Origin: a virus
Length of the DNA: 40,019 nt
Virus record (IMG/VR): IMGVR_UViG_3300045131_001374
Location: 1-40,019 of that record
Direction: 5' to 3' (one strand)
Below the pieces are notes generated by a model. That model did no database searches, was not told the DNA's origin, and was given only the letters and a program-made list of their open reading frames with translations. Shown piece by piece: positions 1-40,019 of this stretch (positions are counted from its first letter, which is position 1; each line of letters begins with the position of its first letter). Position numbers and translations under genes: made by a program.

Positions 1-150
1 GGGTACGCCTCGACCCTCACGGGCGGGGACGACTCGACCCTCACGGGCGGGAACGCCTCGACCCTCACGGGCGGGGACGCCTCGACCCTCACGGGCGGGA
101 ACGCCTCGACCCTCACGGGCGGGTACGCCTCGACCCTCACGGGCGGGGAC
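1..150 (+). repeat. 24-bp tandem repeat, right-hand block
   Basis: There are six full 24-bp units from position 7 to 150, preceded by a 6-base partial unit. Each encodes [A/D]STLTGG[D/N/Y]. The DNA is nearly invariant except at two codons: GCC or GAC at the first residue and GAC, AAC or TAC at the last. The same repeat closes the window at 39737-40019. Confidence 0.97.
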
Positions 151-336
151 GCCTCCGGATTCACTTTCAAATATTGGGATGGTAACAAATATCGCTTCGC
201 CCATGGCTACGTCGGTGAGGACGGCATTCTCCCTGGCGTCGCCTACAAGTGCGTGTCGGGCAAGTTGGTCCCGGTCGATCCCGTGAAGGCTGCGGAAGTC
301 GCGGCGCAGATTGAAGCCGGGAAGGTGTCCCCATGA
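1..336 (+). CDS. Octapeptide-repeat protein, C-terminal part (continues from 39350-40019)
   Basis: This is the 3' end of a gene whose 5' part lies at 39350-40019. It opens in frame inside six full STLTGG octapeptide units and then has a unique C-terminal region of about 61 residues that begins SGFTFKYWDGNKYRF and ends with TGA at 334-336. The aromatic, beta-rich sequence looks like a capping domain for a repeat solenoid. The next gene starts inside the stop (ATGA at 333). Butt-joining the last and first bases of the window puts the two parts out of frame; a one-base overlap restores the 24-bp unit and the frame. The link between the two parts is inferred from the shared repeat. Function is unknown. 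Confidence 0.8.
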   Translation, partial: GYASTLTGGDDSTLTGGNASTLTGGDASTLTGGNASTLTGGYASTLTGGDASGFTFKYWDGNKYRFAHGYVGEDGILPGVAYKCVSGKLVPVDPVKAAEVAAQIEAGKVSP

Positions 337-518: not shown

Positions 519-832
519 TGCGCGATTCTGGCCCATGCCTTTGTGGAGGCTCAGATTGTCCGCGCTGCTTCCCGAACTCATGGAACATCTGCGAAACGTG
601 CGGCGGTGAAGGGGTCCTAACCGACTGCACCGAATGCGAGTTTGAGTCGCAGAAGGATGAGGATGGGGAGTGTCCGCATCGAGACGAGGAAGGTTGTCCG
701 GTGTGCGACGAGTGCGGCGGCGTGTCTGCGCAGGACGACGCGGACAACCTTGCGGAACAGAGGGCGGAGGCGCGTGCGGATCGTTTGGCGGATGAACGCG
801 ACGATCCCAGGAGTTACGATCATGACTACTGA
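518..832 (+). CDS. Cys-rich zinc-cluster protein
   Basis: A 104-residue protein whose first 75 residues carry several CxxC-type pairs (CLCGGSDCPRC, CETCGG, CPVCDECGG), a pattern typical of zinc-binding treble-clef or DnaJ-like knuckles. The C-terminal 30 residues are highly charged and probably helical. The ATG at 518 overlaps the TGA of the gene before it, and the end overlaps the exonuclease start at 822. The role is unknown. A nucleic-acid or protein-binding adaptor for the adjacent recombination genes is a guess from context only. Confidence 0.72.
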   Translation: MRDSGPCLCGGSDCPRCFPNSWNICETCGGEGVLTDCTECEFESQKDEDGECPHRDEEGCPVCDECGGVSAQDDADNLAEQRAEARADRLADERDDPRSYDHDY

Positions 833-1658
833 TCTGGAATACGCAGCACTGGACGCGATCAACGCCAGTTCCTTGAAAATCCTGTACCAGAAGTCGCCGC
901 TTCACTTCATGTATTCGCAGACCCACCCCCGTGAAGAAACCGCGTCGATGACGCTCGGGACTGCGGTACACATGGCGATCCTTGAGCCGGAACGGTTCGC
1001 GTCCTATTACATCGTCGCCCCGGATCTGGACAAGCGCGCGAAGGAATACAAGGCGTTTGTCGAGGCTTGCGGTGGACGTCCGTTCCTGTCCGCAGACCAG
1101 GCGGAAACGGTCCTTGCGATGCAGTCGGCGGTTGAGCGGTGCGAGGCTGCGCGTCCGTACCTGCTTGGCGGCGAAGCGGAAAAGGTGCTGACGTGGACCG
1201 ACGAGGAAACGGGCATCGCGTGCAAGGGGCGGTTGGACCTGTTGCTTGAGGACGGCACCATCGTTGACCTGAAAACCGCCCGCGACATCAGCGCGCGTCC
1301 GTTCGCGTCCGACGCCGCGAAGTACGGTTACTTGTTCAGCCTTGCTTTCTACCACGACGGTTGTGTGGCGTGCGGAATCGACCCGCCCGAAGTCGTCATG
1401 GTGGCGGCGGAAAACTCCGCGCCTTTCGACTGCATCGTTTACCGTGTGTGCGCGGACGACATCGACGTGGGGCGCGAGATGTACCGCACGGCGTTGACCC
1501 GCTTGGCGAAGTGCCGCGAAACGGGGCGGTGGCCGGGTCGGTTCGGCGTTGTGCAGGACTTCGTGCTTCCGCCTTGGGCGTATCCCGAGGAAAAGCCGGA
1601 AACGCTGCGCGGTTGGAAGGGGTTGGAGCAAGAAACGATGGAGGCTTCGGATGAGTGA
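822..1658 (+). CDS. RecB/RecE-type PD-(D/E)XK exonuclease (DUF3799-like)
   Basis: A 278-residue protein resembling phage exodeoxyribonuclease VIII-like nucleases, which resect double-stranded DNA ends for single-strand annealing recombination. Visible motifs are GTAVH at 46-50 (the helical motif before the core), GRLDLL with D139, and VDLKTA with D149 and K151, followed by a Tyr-rich helix (Y168-Y177) in the place of the QxxxY motif. The ATG at 822 has AGGAG about nine bases upstream; an in-frame ATG at 792 has no ribosome site. It overlaps the next gene by 8 bp, which is probably its annealing or ssDNA-binding partner. The family call is from motifs. Confidence 0.85.
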   Translation: MTTDLEYAALDAINASSLKILYQKSPLHFMYSQTHPREETASMTLGTAVHMAILEPERFASYYIVAPDLDKRAKEYKAFVEACGGRPFLSADQAETVLAMQSAVERCEAARPYLLGGEAEKVLTWTDEETGIACKGRLDLLLEDGTIVDLKTARDISARPFASDAAKYGYLFSLAFYHDGCVACGIDPPEVVMVAAENSAPFDCIVYRVCADDIDVGREMYRTALTRLAKCRETGRWPGRFGVVQDFVLPPWAYPEEKPETLRGWKGLEQETMEASDE

Positions 1659-4333: not shown

Positions 4334-4596
4334 CCACCCGCCGTCACCACGTCTGCCCATGCTGCGGGACACGCCTCGCGGATGGTGCTACGCTTGCCAT
4401 CGTCGTTCTTCGGCAGGGCGAGGAGCATCCATGGGACGCGGCGGAACCGGTGCCTACGACGGTCGGATCACGATCCGCGTCGCGTGTTGGGTGGGGCGGT
4501 GGCGCGTCATCAAGCGCGAAGGGCCGGGACCGAGCGGACGCCGTGTTGTCACGGTGGGCAGCAGAACCGAAGCGGACTCGCTTGCCGCAGACCTGA
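4330..4596 (+). CDS. Half zinc ribbon, probably frameshifted; overlaps integrase
   Basis: The ATG at 4330 is coupled to the gene before it (ATGA). The first residues contain VCPCCG, half of a zinc ribbon. In the -1 frame the same DNA encodes RGWCYACHRR, the missing second CxxC, and that frame runs straight into the integrase. A single extra base after about 4368 would give one complete ribbon, CPCCG-(7)-WCYACH. In the frame as found, residues after about 30 look like an out-of-frame shadow of the integrase and overlap it by 166 bp. So it is probably a damaged gene, a sequencing error or a programmed shift. Confidence 0.45.
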   Translation: MTTRRHHVCPCCGTRLADGATLAIVVLRQGEEHPWDAAEPVPTTVGSRSASRVGWGGGASSSAKGRDRADAVLSRWAAEPKRTRLPQT

Positions 4597-5651
4597 TCGC
4601 CGCCATTGACGCGGGACGACTCGCCGCCCTCCGTTCCGGTCCCGAGCCAACCACCATCGCAGATGCCCTGAACCGACACGTTGACGCTGTGGATGCGCGG
4701 GTCAAGGTCGGCAAGAACCGCCCCGGCAACGCCGAATGGACCCGCGCCATGGTCAAGCCGTTGCTCACCACCCTCGGGACCGTGCGCCTCCAGGACGTGA
4801 CGGACGCGACCGCGGAACTGTACGCGCGGGACCGCATCGCCCTTGGTAAACGTCCCGCGTCCGTGTGGGGTGAACTGCGGACCCTGCGATCCGCCCTGAT
4901 TCTCGCCGTCGCGCAGGGGTGGATGGACCTGCCAGTGACCACAACTATTCCCGCGATGTTCCGCTACCTGACCCCGGATCAACTAGGGGACGCGCGGGAA
5001 ATCCAATGGCTGCGGACGGGCGAAGTTGGTCCGTTCCTGACCGCCGCCCATTCAACCCAACCCGCGCCCGTGGTCCTCGCGTACCTGATCGCCCTTCACG
5101 CGGGATTGCGTGGCGGGGAGGTCCTGGCGTTGCAGTGGAGCGATTGGTTGAAGCGGGACCGGGAACTGTCCATCCGTCGCGAGAAAGCCGCCATCGGGTA
5201 CAAGGTGAAGGCGGGCAAGGCTCGGATCGTCCCGGTGACGGGCGAACTGCACGCGGCGTTGACCGAGGAATGGGTGCGGCAGGGACAACCAGGCGCGGAC
5301 GGGTGGATCACTGCGCGTCTTGACGGGGGCCGCCGCACATCCACCGACTCCCTGACCGATACCGTCCATCAGACGTGCGCGAGCGCGGGCGTCACGCGCG
5401 TCACGTTCCATGGACTGCGGCACACGTTTGCGACCCTCGCCCTTGCATCCGGGGCGCTGTCGTTGGTCGAGGTGTCCCGCATCCTTGGGCACGCCTCGGT
5501 CGATTTCACGGCGCGCCTGTACGTCCACGTCGAACGCCGACGCCTCGCGGACGGGGTTGATCGGTTGGCGGCGTTCTACGGGTGCGAATCTGCTAATCAG
5601 GGTGCTAACGTGCTAACGGTGGCACGCGGAACCGCCCGTGATGATGCGTGA
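4431..5651 (+). CDS. int: Tyrosine-family site-specific integrase
   Basis: A 406-residue tyrosine recombinase that would integrate the circular phage DNA at attB. The N-terminal 60 residues form a basic arm-binding-like region, residues about 75-180 a SAM-like core-binding domain, and 190-390 the catalytic domain. Catalytic residues are R227 (HAGLRGGEVLAL), a lysine in KVKAGKARIVPV (258-263), H327 and R330 (HGLRHTF), H354 (LGHAS) and the nucleophile Y364 (ARLYVHV). The start at 4431 has GAGGAG six bases upstream. It is the last gene of the rightward operon, followed by a repeat-rich region that may contain attP. Confidence 0.95.
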   Translation: MGRGGTGAYDGRITIRVACWVGRWRVIKREGPGPSGRRVVTVGSRTEADSLAADLIAAIDAGRLAALRSGPEPTTIADALNRHVDAVDARVKVGKNRPGNAEWTRAMVKPLLTTLGTVRLQDVTDATAELYARDRIALGKRPASVWGELRTLRSALILAVAQGWMDLPVTTTIPAMFRYLTPDQLGDAREIQWLRTGEVGPFLTAAHSTQPAPVVLAYLIALHAGLRGGEVLALQWSDWLKRDRELSIRREKAAIGYKVKAGKARIVPVTGELHAALTEEWVRQGQPGADGWITARLDGGRRTSTDSLTDTVHQTCASAGVTRVTFHGLRHTFATLALASGALSLVEVSRILGHASVDFTARLYVHVERRRLADGVDRLAAFYGCESANQGANVLTVARGTARDDA

Positions 5652-34189: not shown

Positions 34190-34752
34190 GCCCCACCCCC
34201 AATCACTTCCCGGATGGCACCCTCAATCTGTCCAAGGCCCGTCCAAGGCGTTTCGCGACCGGACCGGGGGGATTCGCCCACCAAGTCGAGGAACGGGCGT
34301 AGAGCGGGCCGTTTCGCGGCTTGTTGCGCAGCGCGAAGGGAACGACCCCGGCGACACTCGCAAGACGCGGTTGTTTTCATCGCGGTCCAAGTCTTGACGG
34401 GCGGCGACACGACACGTTCAACCTCGGAGCGGTTGCAGTCGTGCGGGAGGTAAAAGTTCTGACCTTCCACCGTCAACCGCCAAAGCATGATTTGCCCGTA
34501 GTCGCAGAACGGGCAGTGCTCATCCTGCATTGTGGCGTTGGAGGCTTCTCGGGCTACGGCGTCCGAGACTTCGCTAGGGGTCGGGCATTCATCGCCCGTG
34601 ACGGCGTGTTCAGCGTAGAACCGCGCGACACGTCCCCACGCGGAACCGTCCTGCAACCGGAGTACCGACTGATACGCCGCCATGCGGTGCGCGCCGCAGT
34701 TGTAGGTACCGCTGAACACGCCCCATGCGTCTGCGAACTCCCTTTCAAGCAT
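34186..34752 (-). CDS. Early protein of unknown function, zinc-binding
   Basis: A 188-residue protein starting MLEREFADAWGVFSGTYN. It has an N-terminal helical domain (about 1-75), a zinc-like cluster CPFCDYG with HDCN and CEC (about 80-130) and a helical basic end. The start at 34752 overlaps the helicase-methyltransferase gene by 8 bp and has GAGG upstream. Position after the helicase and replication organiser suggests a replication accessory (perhaps a helicase loader-like role), not proven. Confidence 0.66.
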   Translation of the reverse strand: MLEREFADAWGVFSGTYNCGAHRMAAYQSVLRLQDGSAWGRVARFYAEHAVTGDECPTPSEVSDAVAREASNATMQDEHCPFCDYGQIMLWRLTVEGQNFYLPHDCNRSEVERVVSPPVKTWTAMKTTASCECRRGRSLRAAQQAAKRPALRPFLDLVGESPRSGRETPWTGLGQIEGAIREVIGGGA

Positions 34753-36982
34753 CGTCGCCCTCGATTCCGTCCGCCGCGAACAGATCGCCCTGCGCCATGG
34801 CGGCACGCAGGTTCTTGCGTGCAACCCGCCAGTATCCGGGCTTCAATTCGATACCGACGTACTTCCGGCCGTGCTGCAACGCGACGTAGCCTTCCGATCC
34901 GATGCCAGCAAAGGGGGACAGGACCGTATCCCCGCGATTCGACCAGAGCCGCACGCACCGTTCAATGGTCCCGAGTTGCAGCGGGCAGACGTGCTTTTCG
35001 TCCTTTTCGTCCCGAGCCTGGGCGACTTGCAACGTGTCTGATTCGCGGATGCCGTACCAGATCGGCCGCGCCCAGAGAATCCAGTCCTCGTTCGTCACGT
35101 CGTCGCCGGGGCGCACGGGTTCCGTGTTTTCCTCGGGATGCCGGAACAGGAGGATGTAATCGGCCATGGCGGGACGCAACCATGCGGAGTCGCGCTCCTT
35201 CTGGACGAACATCAACTGCTTGGACTTCGTCCGAATCGCCTGCGCCTGCGGGTCCTTGTCAATCACGACCTCGCCGTCGTACACCCATCCCGCGGACACG
35301 AACGCGCGCACGGTATCCGCCCGGAAGTCCCGCCACCCGATGATCCCGTGCGTCGCCTTCGTAGTCGTGACCTGTTGAACGTGAACGCAGGCACGCCGCC
35401 CCGGCTTCGTGACGCGGAGCAGTTCGGGAATCAGGTATCCGAAGTGCTTAAAGAACTCGTCGTAATCCTTCGCGTTGCCCATGTCCCGGTCGGACGCGGA
35501 ATAGGTGTAAAGCGAGGCGAACGGCGGGGAGAACACGGACAACCCGATGGACGAATCGGGAACCTCCTGGATGCGCTCCACGCAGTCCCCGAGCATCAAC
35601 TTCCACTGGCCTTCCCGAATGTCATCGTCGGTCGTGTATTCGTCCATCTGCCGCACCCCCCTTACAGATTCGAGTTGTGAATCGTGCATCGCGGCGACCA
35701 CCGCGGAAGCCATGCGGGTCGCGTCCAGTTCCTTCCGGCGCACGTTCCCGGCGATTTCCCCTTCGGCCTCGGAAATGACGATCCGCACATCAACGGGTTC
35801 CTTCTGGCCGAAGCGGTAGCAGCGCCGGATGGACTGGTAGTAGGCTTCGTACGAATCTCCCAGGCCGAGGAACAGCATCTTGTGACAGTGCTGCCAGTTC
35901 ATCCCGAACCCGAAGATTGCGGGCTTGGTCGCCATGTGGCGAACCGTACCCGAGCGCCAGGCGCGTTCACGTTCGATCTTGGTGGACTCGTCATCCTGCC
36001 CGGCGACGGACACGCAATCGGTGCCCAACGCCTTCGCAATCGCGTCCTGTTCCGCGTTCAGTCCGCACCAGATCAACCACTGACTGTCGGGGTCGGCGCG
36101 GATGATTTCGACCGCGCGGGCGACACGCGCATCCATGGTTTCGCGGCGAACCTCGGAACGCCCCGTGACGCCCCCCAGGCCCGCAGCGAAAAGCATCCCG
36201 TCCGGTTTCCAGTCGGACTGGACGACTTCATCCTTAACGTGCATCGGGGGCAGGACAAATCCATCGTCGGCGTATCCAAGGTCGGACGGGGCGCGGATGA
36301 ACGCCGCCCATTTCGCCATCCAAGAGTACATCGCGTCGGCGCTCCAACCCTTGAGCCGCCAGCCGTTTGCGCCGCACTCCCGGCCGTTGCCCTTTTCATC
36401 GTGAACGAACCACGTCGCCAGCATTTCCGTGCGGGACATGACACCCAAGAACTCGGCGTGGTTCGCGAGTTCTGCAACGTCATTCGGGGCCGGGGTCGCG
36501 GTGCAGCAGAGTCGGTAAGGGATGCTGGTGAACTGCGACAGAAGCAGGGACCGCGTCTTGCCGTCGATGCTTTTCAGGATGCTCGATTCGTCCAGAACGA
36601 TAGCATCGAACGGAACACCGACGAACTTCCCGATGCGCTCGTAGTTCGTCGTCCAGACACCAGGACCGTCGCCGCATTCGGACGGGTCCAAGACGCGGCG
36701 GACTTCCATCCCGATTCGGGCCGCTTCTGCGATGGTCTGCGTCCCGACCGCGATCGGGGTGACAATCAGGACGCGGCCCGCGAAGGCACGCGCCCATTCC
36801 AACTGCATCAGCGTCTTGCCGAGTCCGCAGTCCGCGAAGATCGCCGCGCGCCCCAACCGCACCGCCCATCGGACGATATCGGCCTGGAACTGGTACAGCA
36901 TCGGATGGACCGGGGGCGGCTCGATGCCGCACGGTTGGATCACGTGCGCCTTGGATGCGATAAAATCGTTGTAACGGATCAT
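34745..36982 (-). CDS. SNF2-like helicase fused to N4-type DNA methyltransferase
   Basis: A 745-residue fusion. Residues 25-410 are a superfamily 2 SNF2-like ATPase: GLGKT at 53-57, DESS at 131-134, TATPAPND at 161-168 and QSIRRCYRFGQKEPV at 383-397. Residues about 455-735 are a beta-class amino-methyltransferase in permuted order: SPPF at 485-488 (the catalytic motif usual for N4-cytosine) then FAGIGSEG at 691-698 (SAM binding). No endonuclease gene is near, so it is likely a solitary modifier that may translocate on DNA while methylating, for protection against host restriction. The start at 36982 forms an ATGA overlap. Confidence 0.88.
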   Translation of the reverse strand: MIRYNDFIASKAHVIQPCGIEPPPVHPMLYQFQADIVRWAVRLGRAAIFADCGLGKTLMQLEWARAFAGRVLIVTPIAVGTQTIAEAARIGMEVRRVLDPSECGDGPGVWTTNYERIGKFVGVPFDAIVLDESSILKSIDGKTRSLLLSQFTSIPYRLCCTATPAPNDVAELANHAEFLGVMSRTEMLATWFVHDEKGNGRECGANGWRLKGWSADAMYSWMAKWAAFIRAPSDLGYADDGFVLPPMHVKDEVVQSDWKPDGMLFAAGLGGVTGRSEVRRETMDARVARAVEIIRADPDSQWLIWCGLNAEQDAIAKALGTDCVSVAGQDDESTKIERERAWRSGTVRHMATKPAIFGFGMNWQHCHKMLFLGLGDSYEAYYQSIRRCYRFGQKEPVDVRIVISEAEGEIAGNVRRKELDATRMASAVVAAMHDSQLESVRGVRQMDEYTTDDDIREGQWKLMLGDCVERIQEVPDSSIGLSVFSPPFASLYTYSASDRDMGNAKDYDEFFKHFGYLIPELLRVTKPGRRACVHVQQVTTTKATHGIIGWRDFRADTVRAFVSAGWVYDGEVVIDKDPQAQAIRTKSKQLMFVQKERDSAWLRPAMADYILLFRHPEENTEPVRPGDDVTNEDWILWARPIWYGIRESDTLQVAQARDEKDEKHVCPLQLGTIERCVRLWSNRGDTVLSPFAGIGSEGYVALQHGRKYVGIELKPGYWRVARKNLRAAMAQGDLFAADGIEGDDA

Positions 36983-37815
36983 TCCGACCAACCTCCCAGT
37001 TTTGACAACGCCAGTTCGGATGCGGTCATGCGGCGGGCTTCAGGGAACTGCATCGGTTTCGGTTCGGGCGGGTTGTCGTCCGTCGCCATGAACTGATCAA
37101 CGTGCGCGCCGTCCCGCAGAATCAGGTCGATGCCGTTGTACTTCTTGCCTGCGGGGTTCTCACCCATGTGGTAAGACGACTTCGCGCAGCCGTCGATAGC
37201 CTTGCAACAGTCCGCGACGGTGTACTTCCGCAGGATGCGGTTGATCATGGCGCGGCGCTTGTCGTCCAGTTTCGCTTTGGCGTATCCGTGAACCTTCTGC
37301 CAATGGGCGAACACGTCCATAGCATCGTGCCCGTCCTTGGACGGGTGAGGATCCGCAGGATCCGATAGATTTGCTTCTGCTTCTGCTTCTGCTTGGCGTT
37401 TCTGTCCGTTACCAACCGTTACAGGCGTTACAGTAACGTTACCGGGCGTTACATCCTTTCGTTTCCGGTAGTTCTGGACGCGGATTCTGGTCTGCTCGCG
37501 CTGAACAGAAGCGTCTGCCATCTCGCGGTACTTCGAGTAGTTCACGACGTGCCACTGGTTCGGCGCGATTTGCAGCACGCGCCGCCCGTCGTCGCCGGTA
37601 CTTGTGGAACACGCATCGGGATTCTGGAATATTTCAAGGGCTGTGGTCATTTGCTCAACAGTCAGGTTCGCGGAACGGGCAAGGGCGGTAGGCGTTCCGT
37701 ACACCGTCCCGTCTTGGTCCGACAGAAGCAACATCGTTACCCATGCGATCCGGGTCGTTGCCGACTCATCCCACACGGACGACTTGATCATTCGGTCAAA
37801 CAGTTTGACGTACAT
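36979..37815 (-). CDS. Phage replication initiation protein/replisome organiser
   Basis: A 278-residue protein. Residues 1-95 resemble a winged-helix origin-binding domain (YVKLFDRMIKSSVWDES, then TPTALARSANLTVEQMTTAL). A linker contains AEAEAEANL, coded by a GCTTCT hexamer repeat. The C-terminal part (DDKRRAMINRILRKYTVADCC, then HMGENPAGKKYNGIDLILRD) matches the helicase-loading end of lambda O-like and DnaD/DnaT-like proteins. It is the second gene of the leftward early operon, so replication would start from the immediate early promoter. Confidence 0.82.
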   Translation of the reverse strand: MYVKLFDRMIKSSVWDESATTRIAWVTMLLLSDQDGTVYGTPTALARSANLTVEQMTTALEIFQNPDACSTSTGDDGRRVLQIAPNQWHVVNYSKYREMADASVQREQTRIRVQNYRKRKDVTPGNVTVTPVTVGNGQKRQAEAEAEANLSDPADPHPSKDGHDAMDVFAHWQKVHGYAKAKLDDKRRAMINRILRKYTVADCCKAIDGCAKSSYHMGENPAGKKYNGIDLILRDGAHVDQFMATDDNPPEPKPMQFPEARRMTASELALSKLGGWSE

Positions 37816-38108: not shown

Positions 38109-38137
38109 AGCGTAAACAGCGACGCTGTTAATGTCAA
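38109..38137 (-). promoter_or_regulatory. Leftward early promoter
   Basis: On the minus strand TTGACA (38137-38132) is followed after exactly 17 bases by TACGCT (38114-38109). The -10 is weak, but the -35 is perfect. The entire spacer except two bases is the perfect palindrome of the operator. Transcription would begin near 38101, about 35 bases before the Cro-like gene. Confidence 0.7.
38115..38129. promoter_or_regulatory. Operator O1, perfect 15-bp palindrome
   Basis: AACAGCG-A-CGCTGTT, both arms perfect around one central base. It fills the spacer of the leftward promoter, so a bound dimer would block polymerase directly. Likely ligands are the CI-like and Cro-like proteins on either side. 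Confidence 0.82.
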
Positions 38138-38144
38138 GAGCAAA

Positions 38145-38159
38145 AACACCGGTACTGTT
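38145..38159. promoter_or_regulatory. Operator O2, imperfect
   Basis: AACACCG-G-TACTGTT keeps the outer AACA and TGTT of O1 in a 15-bp frame. Its centre is 30 bp from the O1 centre, about three helical turns, which suits cooperative dimer binding. It lies just upstream of the repressor start and could autoregulate it. Confidence 0.55.
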
Positions 38160-38172
38160 ACGGGGGGGGCAG

Positions 38173-38751
38173 ATGCGTCGCGAAAAGTTGATCGGGTGGC
38201 GGAAGAAAAAGGGGTTGACGCAGGCGAGCCTTGCTGCGTTCCTCAGGTGCGGTCAATCGTGGGTCAATCAGGTCGAATTGGGCACGATTAGCAAGCCCGA
38301 CACTGACCGGATTGAATTGTACGCGCACGCACTCGGGCGATCTGTCACTGAGGTTGCGGAGCAGTTCACGGGGTTGAGCCTCGTGACGCCCGCTGGTGAA
38401 ATAAAACTCACCCCCATGTCGCAACCAACAGGTAGTATCGTCCGGTCAGGGAGAGACAGGATGTGCATCATGCTCGCGAAAGAAGCGCCACACCCATCAG
38501 CGCGCGAGTTTTGGAGGTTGGACGAACCAGGCGGTTTGTTACTCGCCGGGGACGTCCTCGAATCGGTGCGCGGTCAACAGCCCGCGCCCGGCCAGTTCGT
38601 GATCGTGGCGCACGGTGATGTGTTGCTGTTCGGGCGATACCGCAACGACCCGTGCCCGCAAATCGAATCGCTGGACGACGGTTCGCGGACCATCCTGGAT
38701 GAAACGTGGGTCATCCGCGCGACCGTGACCGCCCTGCACCGCACCCTGTAA
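38173..38751 (+). CDS. CI-like repressor
   Basis: A 192-residue protein with an N-terminal XRE helix-turn-helix (LIGWRKKKGLTQASLAAFLR, then SWVNQVELG) and a C-terminal half that resembles the beta-rich LexA/CI dimer domain (GDVLESVRGQQPAPGQFVIV, then GDVLLFGRYR). The serine of the usual G-D-S-M-x-P is absent; the aligned bases give GDVLES. So it may lack RecA-triggered self-cleavage. The ATG at 38173 lies three bases after a run of eight G that doubles as ribosome site. It faces the Cro-like gene across the operators. Confidence 0.85.
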   Translation: MRREKLIGWRKKKGLTQASLAAFLRCGQSWVNQVELGTISKPDTDRIELYAHALGRSVTEVAEQFTGLSLVTPAGEIKLTPMSQPTGSIVRSGRDRMCIMLAKEAPHPSAREFWRLDEPGGLLLAGDVLESVRGQQPAPGQFVIVAHGDVLLFGRYRNDPCPQIESLDDGSRTILDETWVIRATVTALHRTL

Positions 38752-39017: not shown

Positions 39018-39353
39018 ATGGCAACCGATTCTGTCTATCGCGGCCCGATGCTTGTCGAGGTCGTTTCGACCCTGAACGGGACCGTTCGCCGCGTGGCATC
39101 GACCCTGATGCGCGAGGATGCGGTTCGCCTCGTGGACGCGCTGAACGCCAGCCACCCCACGATTCGATACGAGGTTCGTTCGGTGGGCGCGTTGGAACTG
39201 TGTCCCGCTTGCTACCGGGGCCAACGCGAGGAACTTCAGGACAACACGGAACCGCGGCAGGAGTCGGATGCGGGCGTTCCCGTGACGTGCCCGAAGGATT
39301 ACAAGCCGTGCCACATTCCCGGCGCGTGCGATGGATGTGAGGTGACGGCATGA
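39018..39353 (+). CDS. First gene of rightward operon, Cys-containing unknown protein
   Basis: A 111-residue protein. The first 60 residues are alpha/beta (VEVVSTLNGTVRRVAST, then REDAVRLVDALNAS), and the second half carries CPACYRG and CPKDYKPCHIPGACDGCEV, a likely zinc or disulfide site. GGAGG lies seven bases before the ATG at 39018. It overlaps the next gene by 4 bp (ATGA). No family is recognised. Confidence 0.7.
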   Translation: MATDSVYRGPMLVEVVSTLNGTVRRVASTLMREDAVRLVDALNASHPTIRYEVRSVGALELCPACYRGQREELQDNTEPRQESDAGVPVTCPKDYKPCHIPGACDGCEVTA

Positions 39354-40019
39354 AAGCGACAGCGAGGAAGACCGTGAAGAAAACCACCAAGCCCGAAACC
39401 GTCCTGGTCCTACGAACCTGCGATGCGGAGCGGAAATCCTACGGTGGTTTTCAATGGCCCGAATCCGGCCCGGTCGAATGCTCGGACTGGCGGGACAACT
39501 TCGGTTGCGGCGGCGGTCTGCACGGGCTGCTGTGGGGTGAGGGCGACGGGTCGCTACTGAACTGGACCGCCGACGCGTTGTGGTTGGTTGTCGAGGTTCT
39601 TACTTCCGACGTGCGCCACGGGCAGGGCGACATGGTGAAGAAGTGTAAGTTCCCACGGGGCACTGTGCTGTTCTGCGGGACGAGGGATGCGGCGGTTGCG
39701 ATGGTCTTGACTGCAAGGCCGGGATCGGCGTGCGTGGCCTCGACCCTCACGGGCGGGGACGACTCGACCCTCACGGGCGGGTACGCCTCGACCCTCACGG
39801 GCGGGGACGACTCGACCCTCACGGGCGGGAACGCCTCGACCCTCACGGGCGGGGACGCCTCGACCCTCACGGGCGGGGACGACTCGACCCTCACGGGCGG
39901 GGACGCCTCGACCCTCACGGGCGGGTACGCCTCGACCCTCACGGGCGGGGACGACTCGACCCTCACGGGCGGGAACGCCTCGACCCTCACGGGCGGGGAC
40001 GCCTCGACCCTCACGGGCG
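39350..40019 (+). CDS. Octapeptide-repeat protein, N-terminal part (continues at 1-336)
   Basis: The first 129 residues form a globular domain: a basic tail, VLVLRTCDAERKSYGGFQWP, NFGCGGGLHGLLWGEGDGS, ALWLVVEV and KCKFPRGTVLFCGTRDAA. I recognise this as the phage domain (DUF7666-like) that typically precedes short repeats. From about residue 130, eleven full octapeptides [A/D]STLTGG[D/N/Y] and a partial one run to the window end, and about seven more lie at 1-150, about 18 in all. Period and TxT-like Ser/Thr ladder recall ice-nucleation and antifreeze beta-solenoids. The true copy number is uncertain because such repeats collapse in assembly. Confidence 0.85.
   Translation, partial: MKATARKTVKKTTKPETVLVLRTCDAERKSYGGFQWPESGPVECSDWRDNFGCGGGLHGLLWGEGDGSLLNWTADALWLVVEVLTSDVRHGQGDMVKKCKFPRGTVLFCGTRDAAVAMVLTARPGSACVASTLTGGDDSTLTGGYASTLTGGDDSTLTGGNASTLTGGDASTLTGGDDSTLTGGDASTLTGGYASTLTGGDDSTLTGGNASTLTGGDASTLTG
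39737..40019 (+). repeat. 24-bp tandem repeat, left-hand block
   Basis: There are eleven full 24-bp units and a 19-base partial unit. Differences are limited to the first bases of the last codon (GAC, AAC, TAC) and the second base of the first codon (GCC, GAC). All other bases including third positions are identical, a sign of recent expansion or gene conversion. The sequence continues at position 1. Confidence 0.97.

Follow-up and report, generated by a model that had tools for sequence, protein, structure and literature searches.

The window, the whole 40,019-nucleotide stretch of viral record IMGVR_UViG_3300045131_001374 analysed here, starts and ends within a single gene (Table 1). Bases 1-97 are an exact copy of positions 39923-40019, and this overlap sits inside a tandem array of 24-bp units that occupies positions 39737-40019 (11.8 copies) and 1-155 (6.5 copies). 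Joining the contig ends on the 97-base overlap yielded one open reading frame from 39350 to the stop codon at 334-336, with about 302 residues and 14 octads. Direct abutment of the ends was rejected since the reading frame is then lost, whereas the overlap join restores it. The first-pass annotation of this DNA had counted about 18 octapeptide units; the array is real, but the number is inflated, since bases 1-97 repeat 39923-40019 and four units are thereby counted twice. That annotation contained neither the terminal overlap nor two findings described below, the homology to bbp36 and VR2 of BPP-1 and the diversity of the variable positions far above that of synonymous sites. The record represents either a permuted circle or a break within the array.

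Table 1. Features of the array gene and its surroundings in the window.
Feature	Position	Strand	Evidence or remark
HTH repressor-like gene, upstream	38131..38751	+	HTH_31 4.5e-8, phrog_8
111-aa ORF without family match; 4-base overlap with start of array gene	39018..39353	+	ORF, family searches
Array gene, 5' part: start codon, DUF7666 head, first 11-12 octads	39350..40019	+	ORF; runs off record end, continues at base 98
DUF7666/RIIB-C-like globular head, about residues 17-122	39398..39715	+	Pfam DUF7666, alignment of 73 sequences, AlphaFold
Octapeptide array, first section: 24-bp units, TCGACCCTCACGGGCGGG + 6-nt variable cassette	39740..40019	+	Repeat analysis
97-base exact terminal overlap with 1-97	39923..40019	.	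Sequence identity
Array gene, 3' part: remaining octads, C-terminal domain, stop	1..336	+	Bases 1-97 duplicate 39923-40019
Octapeptide array, second section, of which bases 1-97 form the terminal overlap	1..153	+	Repeat analysis
Conserved C-terminal domain (KYWDGNKYR..YVGEDGI..VAYK)	154..333	+	Kept in relatives; pLDDT >94 except tail
Exonuclease VIII / RecE-like (DUF3799) gene, downstream	822..1658	+	phrog_412 6.5e-72, PF12684 1e-31
Integrase	4431-5651		Family searches

Another contig, L009, is 99.9% identical to the window over 6.6 kb and reads through the junction unbroken, showing that the array gene is real and continuous. It contains 8 units, exactly six (144 bp) fewer than the window, and the missing stretch is flanked by two copies of one four-unit block. 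Because the window contig breaks within the array and its near-identical counterpart has 8 units, the unit count of the window is unsafe; the true number is uncertain, and the discrepancy may reflect either a difference within the population or an assembly collapse. L013 with L024 provides another case of a contig with both its start and its end in its array. Short-read contigs break or collapse at octad arrays, and neither repeat counts nor even contig ends can be trusted in such regions.

The N-terminal part of the protein matched DUF7666 (PF24703) with an E value of 1.2e-4 and 22.9 bits, which does not reach the Pfam gathering cut-off of 27 bits. Matches at E 0.01 or better were found in 55 of 58 relatives, several of them above the cut-off, and the DUF7666-like domain that had been proposed in front of the array is thereby borne out. 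An alignment of 73 sequences identified the invariant head residues D46, C53, G54, G56, L57, H58, G63, K98, K100 and G110 (numbering of the window protein). The 223-aa part encoded before the end of the window also matched PHROG 18079 (E = 5.9e-31), as did the full-length L009 protein (1.3e-42) and Bbp36 of Bordetella phage BPP-1 (2.2e-162). By these profile matches, the array protein is a fresh member of the known, uncharacterised Bbp36 family. The family is widespread in phages, with 269 candidate relatives in viral contigs from one alignment search, and DUF7666 is rare in cells: 299 sampled Pseudomonadota genomes gave two matches, one of them the seed. Retrieval of classical DUF7666 relatives relied on a composed 103-residue query, and only the retrieved sequences were used downstream. 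The ES18 gp53-like early proteins of P22-like phages share the C-x-x-G-[FL]-H core and an octad array with the window protein, but have ASNTGDxSA and similar repeat frameworks, and it is the window protein that falls under the Pfam cut-off.

The neighbouring repressor-like, exonuclease VIII-like and integrase genes agree with the earlier description of the array gene as an early phage gene. Similar neighbours were found in the relatives, including CI-like/S24 repressors, PD-(D/E)XK exonucleases, ParB-like proteins and integrases, and in the P22-like phage Emek the DUF7666 relative is placed between c2 and c3-kil-arf-erf. Such a position corresponds to the early immunity and recombination region, a typical site of accessory genes for host interaction.

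The closest parallel in cultured phages is Bbp36 of the Bordetella phages BPP-1, BMP-1 and BIP-1, which has the same head, 24-bp octad units and the same C-terminal domain, is likewise encoded after the repressor region, and changes its array length by whole units. Its unit is GTATAGxx, as compared to STLTGGxx in the window, and the head domains are about 40% identical. In BPP-1 the array carries the annotation 'variable region 2' (VR2). Between near-identical flanks there are 14 units in BPP-1, 20 in BIP-1, about 21 in BMP-1 and 7 in vB_BbrP_003. BPP-1 carries a reverse-transcriptase system, and hypermutation of the kind produced by diversity-generating retroelements was considered for the arrays; it was rejected because no match to the RVT_1 profile, and hence no reverse transcriptase, was found within the window, and because several of the bases at which the BPP-1 cassettes differ are not A-only. 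VR2 has been reported in 9-20 copies depending on the isolate, apparently not tied to host tropism, and bbp36 of BMP-1 is non-essential (PMC2884959). The same study likened the array organisation of mycobacteriophage Tweety gp54 to VR2 and proposed selection for variety in gp54 (PMC2884959). Tweety gp54 resembles the window protein in having a tetra/octapeptide array whose repeats are homogenised, with frozen third positions alongside variable residues; the repeat itself differs, so that the comparison made here is one of organisation.

The octad of the window is STLTGG-[DYN]-[AD]. The 13 units compared had one and the same 18-nt framework and varied at just two nucleotide positions (GAC/TAC/AAC and GCC/GAC), as expected from the first-pass description of two variable residues (D/N/Y and A/D) and frozen third codon positions. 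The same pattern was seen across the family. Among 713 units from 71 arrays, synonymous framework differences separated 2.1% of the unit pairs within arrays versus 59% between arrays, whereas the amino acid at positions 7-8 differed in 63% of the within-array pairs. Nucleotide diversity was 0.02-0.05 at framework third positions as compared to 0.55 at the first position of codon 7, and reached 0.49 and 0.36 at the first and second positions of codon 8 (68-71 arrays, some of which are non-independent). The pattern used to choose the array sections has T2, T4 and G6 fixed, which leaves the synonymous counts unaffected. The frozen framework is explained by the homogenisation of whole units, which leaves the diversity of the cassettes unexplained; these comparisons suggest selection for variety at the two outer residues of the octad as the simplest reading. 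The number of canonical units in 64 metagenome arrays had a median of 9 and ranged from 4 to 28, these lengths being influenced by assembly. A constraint to whole 16-residue coils, for which a bias in unit number would be expected, was rejected since odd and even octad numbers both occur within one linker class.

AlphaFold modelled the L009 protein, with 8 units and an alignment of 58 sequences, as a compact DUF7666 head followed by a beta-solenoid, in which each octad contributes a strand of 3-4 residues, and by a conserved end domain (pLDDT 96.4, pTM 0.86). The pLDDT values were about 97-98 through the array, where AlphaFold tends toward over-confidence on perfect repeats. The beta-solenoid postulated in the first-pass annotation is thus recovered in the model, which places a strand in every octad, and two octads probably form one 16-residue coil. 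The head of the window protein modelled alone had a pLDDT of 92, and a search of the PDB with the head domain gave nothing below an E value of 0.5 and no solved structure resembling it.

When the full model was compared with viral models in Foldseek, the DUF7666 proteins were followed by many RIIB proteins, with probabilities mostly of 0.97-1.0, rmsd values of about 3-6 A across some 100-130 columns and E values of only 0.013-0.12. The aligned length points to the head as the matching region. Profile comparisons with hhalign gave a probability of 71% for the classical phage DUF7666 against the RIIB C-terminal domain, aligned over the domain length, and 69% for a combined DUF7666 profile against a richer RIIB set, with a score of 33.7 versus a maximum of 21.4 among 40 decoys made by column shuffling or reversal. 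With the window-type DUF7666 profile alone, the probability was only 26-40%. Both families have a C-x-x-G-L-H motif followed about 40 residues later by K-x-[KR]. On the basis of these profile and model comparisons, the DUF7666 head and the RIIB C-terminal domain are likely to be remote homologs. The RIIB proteins of T4 and its relatives differ in their N-terminal parts, have no octad array and normally act with RIIA. RIIA carries a domain of the HATPase_c_3 type, and no such domain was found in the window, which may be an incomplete record. In several phages the RII proteins act against RexAB exclusion (PMC11879866), and RIIB and prophage exclusion provide a first lead on the role of the family.

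Our interpretation, offered tentatively, is that a temperate phage carries the array gene as an accessory early gene acting in phage-host conflict, a homolog of bbp36 with a RIIB-like head and a variable solenoid stalk. The protein consists of the N-terminal DUF7666 head, the octapeptide stalk with its predicted beta-solenoid fold and the conserved C-terminal domain, and the DNA of the stalk would behave as a coding minisatellite in which unequal recombination or replication slippage gains and loses whole 24-bp units. Turnover of the units would keep the framework identical while selection maintains the variety of two residues per turn. The exposed ladder of variable residues could then serve as a fast-changing binding face of adjustable length, which would engage a host defence or a factor of a rival prophage, leaving the RIIB-like head to carry out the activity. 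The data point to a protein that varies in the number of its repeats and in two cassette residues per turn, and not by way of reverse transcription. In a wider and decidedly speculative form of this proposal, the Bbp36/DUF7666 proteins would be the temperate-phage counterparts of RIIB, and minisatellite recombination combined with diversifying selection would constitute a diversity generator, free of reverse transcriptase, that is directed against defence factors of the host or of prophages.

The best rival to the conflict-protein reading is that the array is a selectively neutral minisatellite within the coding sequence and acts as a structural spacer; its length would drift through slippage, and its variable residues would have no role. 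The non-essentiality of Bbp36 (PMC2884959) is what such a spacer would predict, as is the wide range of unit numbers, which change by odd as well as by even octads. Drift would, however, leave synonymous differences, and the low frequency of these within arrays, set against the high frequency of differences in the cassette codons, makes this alternative unlikely in our view.

That the repeat is an assembly artefact or a disordered low-complexity segment is much less probable. The contig of the window does end inside the array, and contig ends truncate 13 of the 80 related arrays, but cultured phages and many independent contigs contain intact arrays, and the high pLDDT across the array argues against disorder.

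Nor is there much to recommend the acidic, DNA-mimic-like rod suggested in the first-pass annotation, considered here as a decoy in the manner of anti-restriction proteins. Asp residues are numerous and 51 of 64 arrays have a net negative charge, but the charge is mild, with a family mean of -0.85 to +0.44 per octad, and the sign flips between the arrays of the closely related BPP-1 (+8) and BIP-1 (-7), which have their flanks in common. We consider this reading very improbable, although a decoy role of another kind, which the first-pass annotation also named, is conceivable.

The similarity to ice-nucleation proteins (INPs), noted in the same annotation, holds for the period. Like the INP repeat (PF00818), the window octad is an eight-residue half-coil that contains T-x-T and whose turn holds Tyr/Asp/Asn and variable positions, and PF00818 was matched by 6 of 58 relatives (best E = 1.5e-23; 82.5 bits for L086). 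In addition, Burkholderia phage Mica gp52, another member of the family, is annotated as 'ice nucleation protein', and there was a weak PDB match to the grass antifreeze protein 3ULT. The window protein itself fails the PF00818 profile, however (E = 0.72; 9.9 bits versus a cut-off of 27), and is not a member of that family. A function in ice nucleation or antifreeze, with water ordered by Thr ladders, is the least credible of all readings, since the window protein has no INP anchor or N-terminal domain and 7 coils at most (14 octads) versus 65 in PbINP (PMC9418140), since its array contains no arginine and lacks the C-terminal R-coils that were found to be critical in INPs (PMC9418140), and since neither hosts nor contexts offer a reason for ice activity.

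A few contigs (L018, L103, L114, L019/L020, L068/L082 and L074/L075) contained two DUF7666-array genes, some of them adjacent, with differing frameworks and unit numbers. In L025 (2569-4206) the DUF7666 head and an octad array of the SQLSASG type are preceded by a fused macro domain (PF01661, 22.2 bits), and the DUF7666-array protein of Acinetobacter phage fLi-Aba03 (L142, 1459-2334) is annotated as a 'putative ADP-ribosyltransferase'. These two observations were taken as a hint at most of such an activity, which was set aside for want of fold support. The octad array of a DUF7666 gene in Vibrio phage 1.185.O (L145, 1248-1465) is annotated as CRISPR spacers, probably a mistake due to the tandem repeat. 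The bacterial copy in a Martelella alba contig (L036) carries a TAG codon in frame, within or close to the domain. Elsewhere in the window, on the minus strand at 34745-36991, a single ORF combines an SNF2-type helicase region with an N6/N4 DNA methylase domain.
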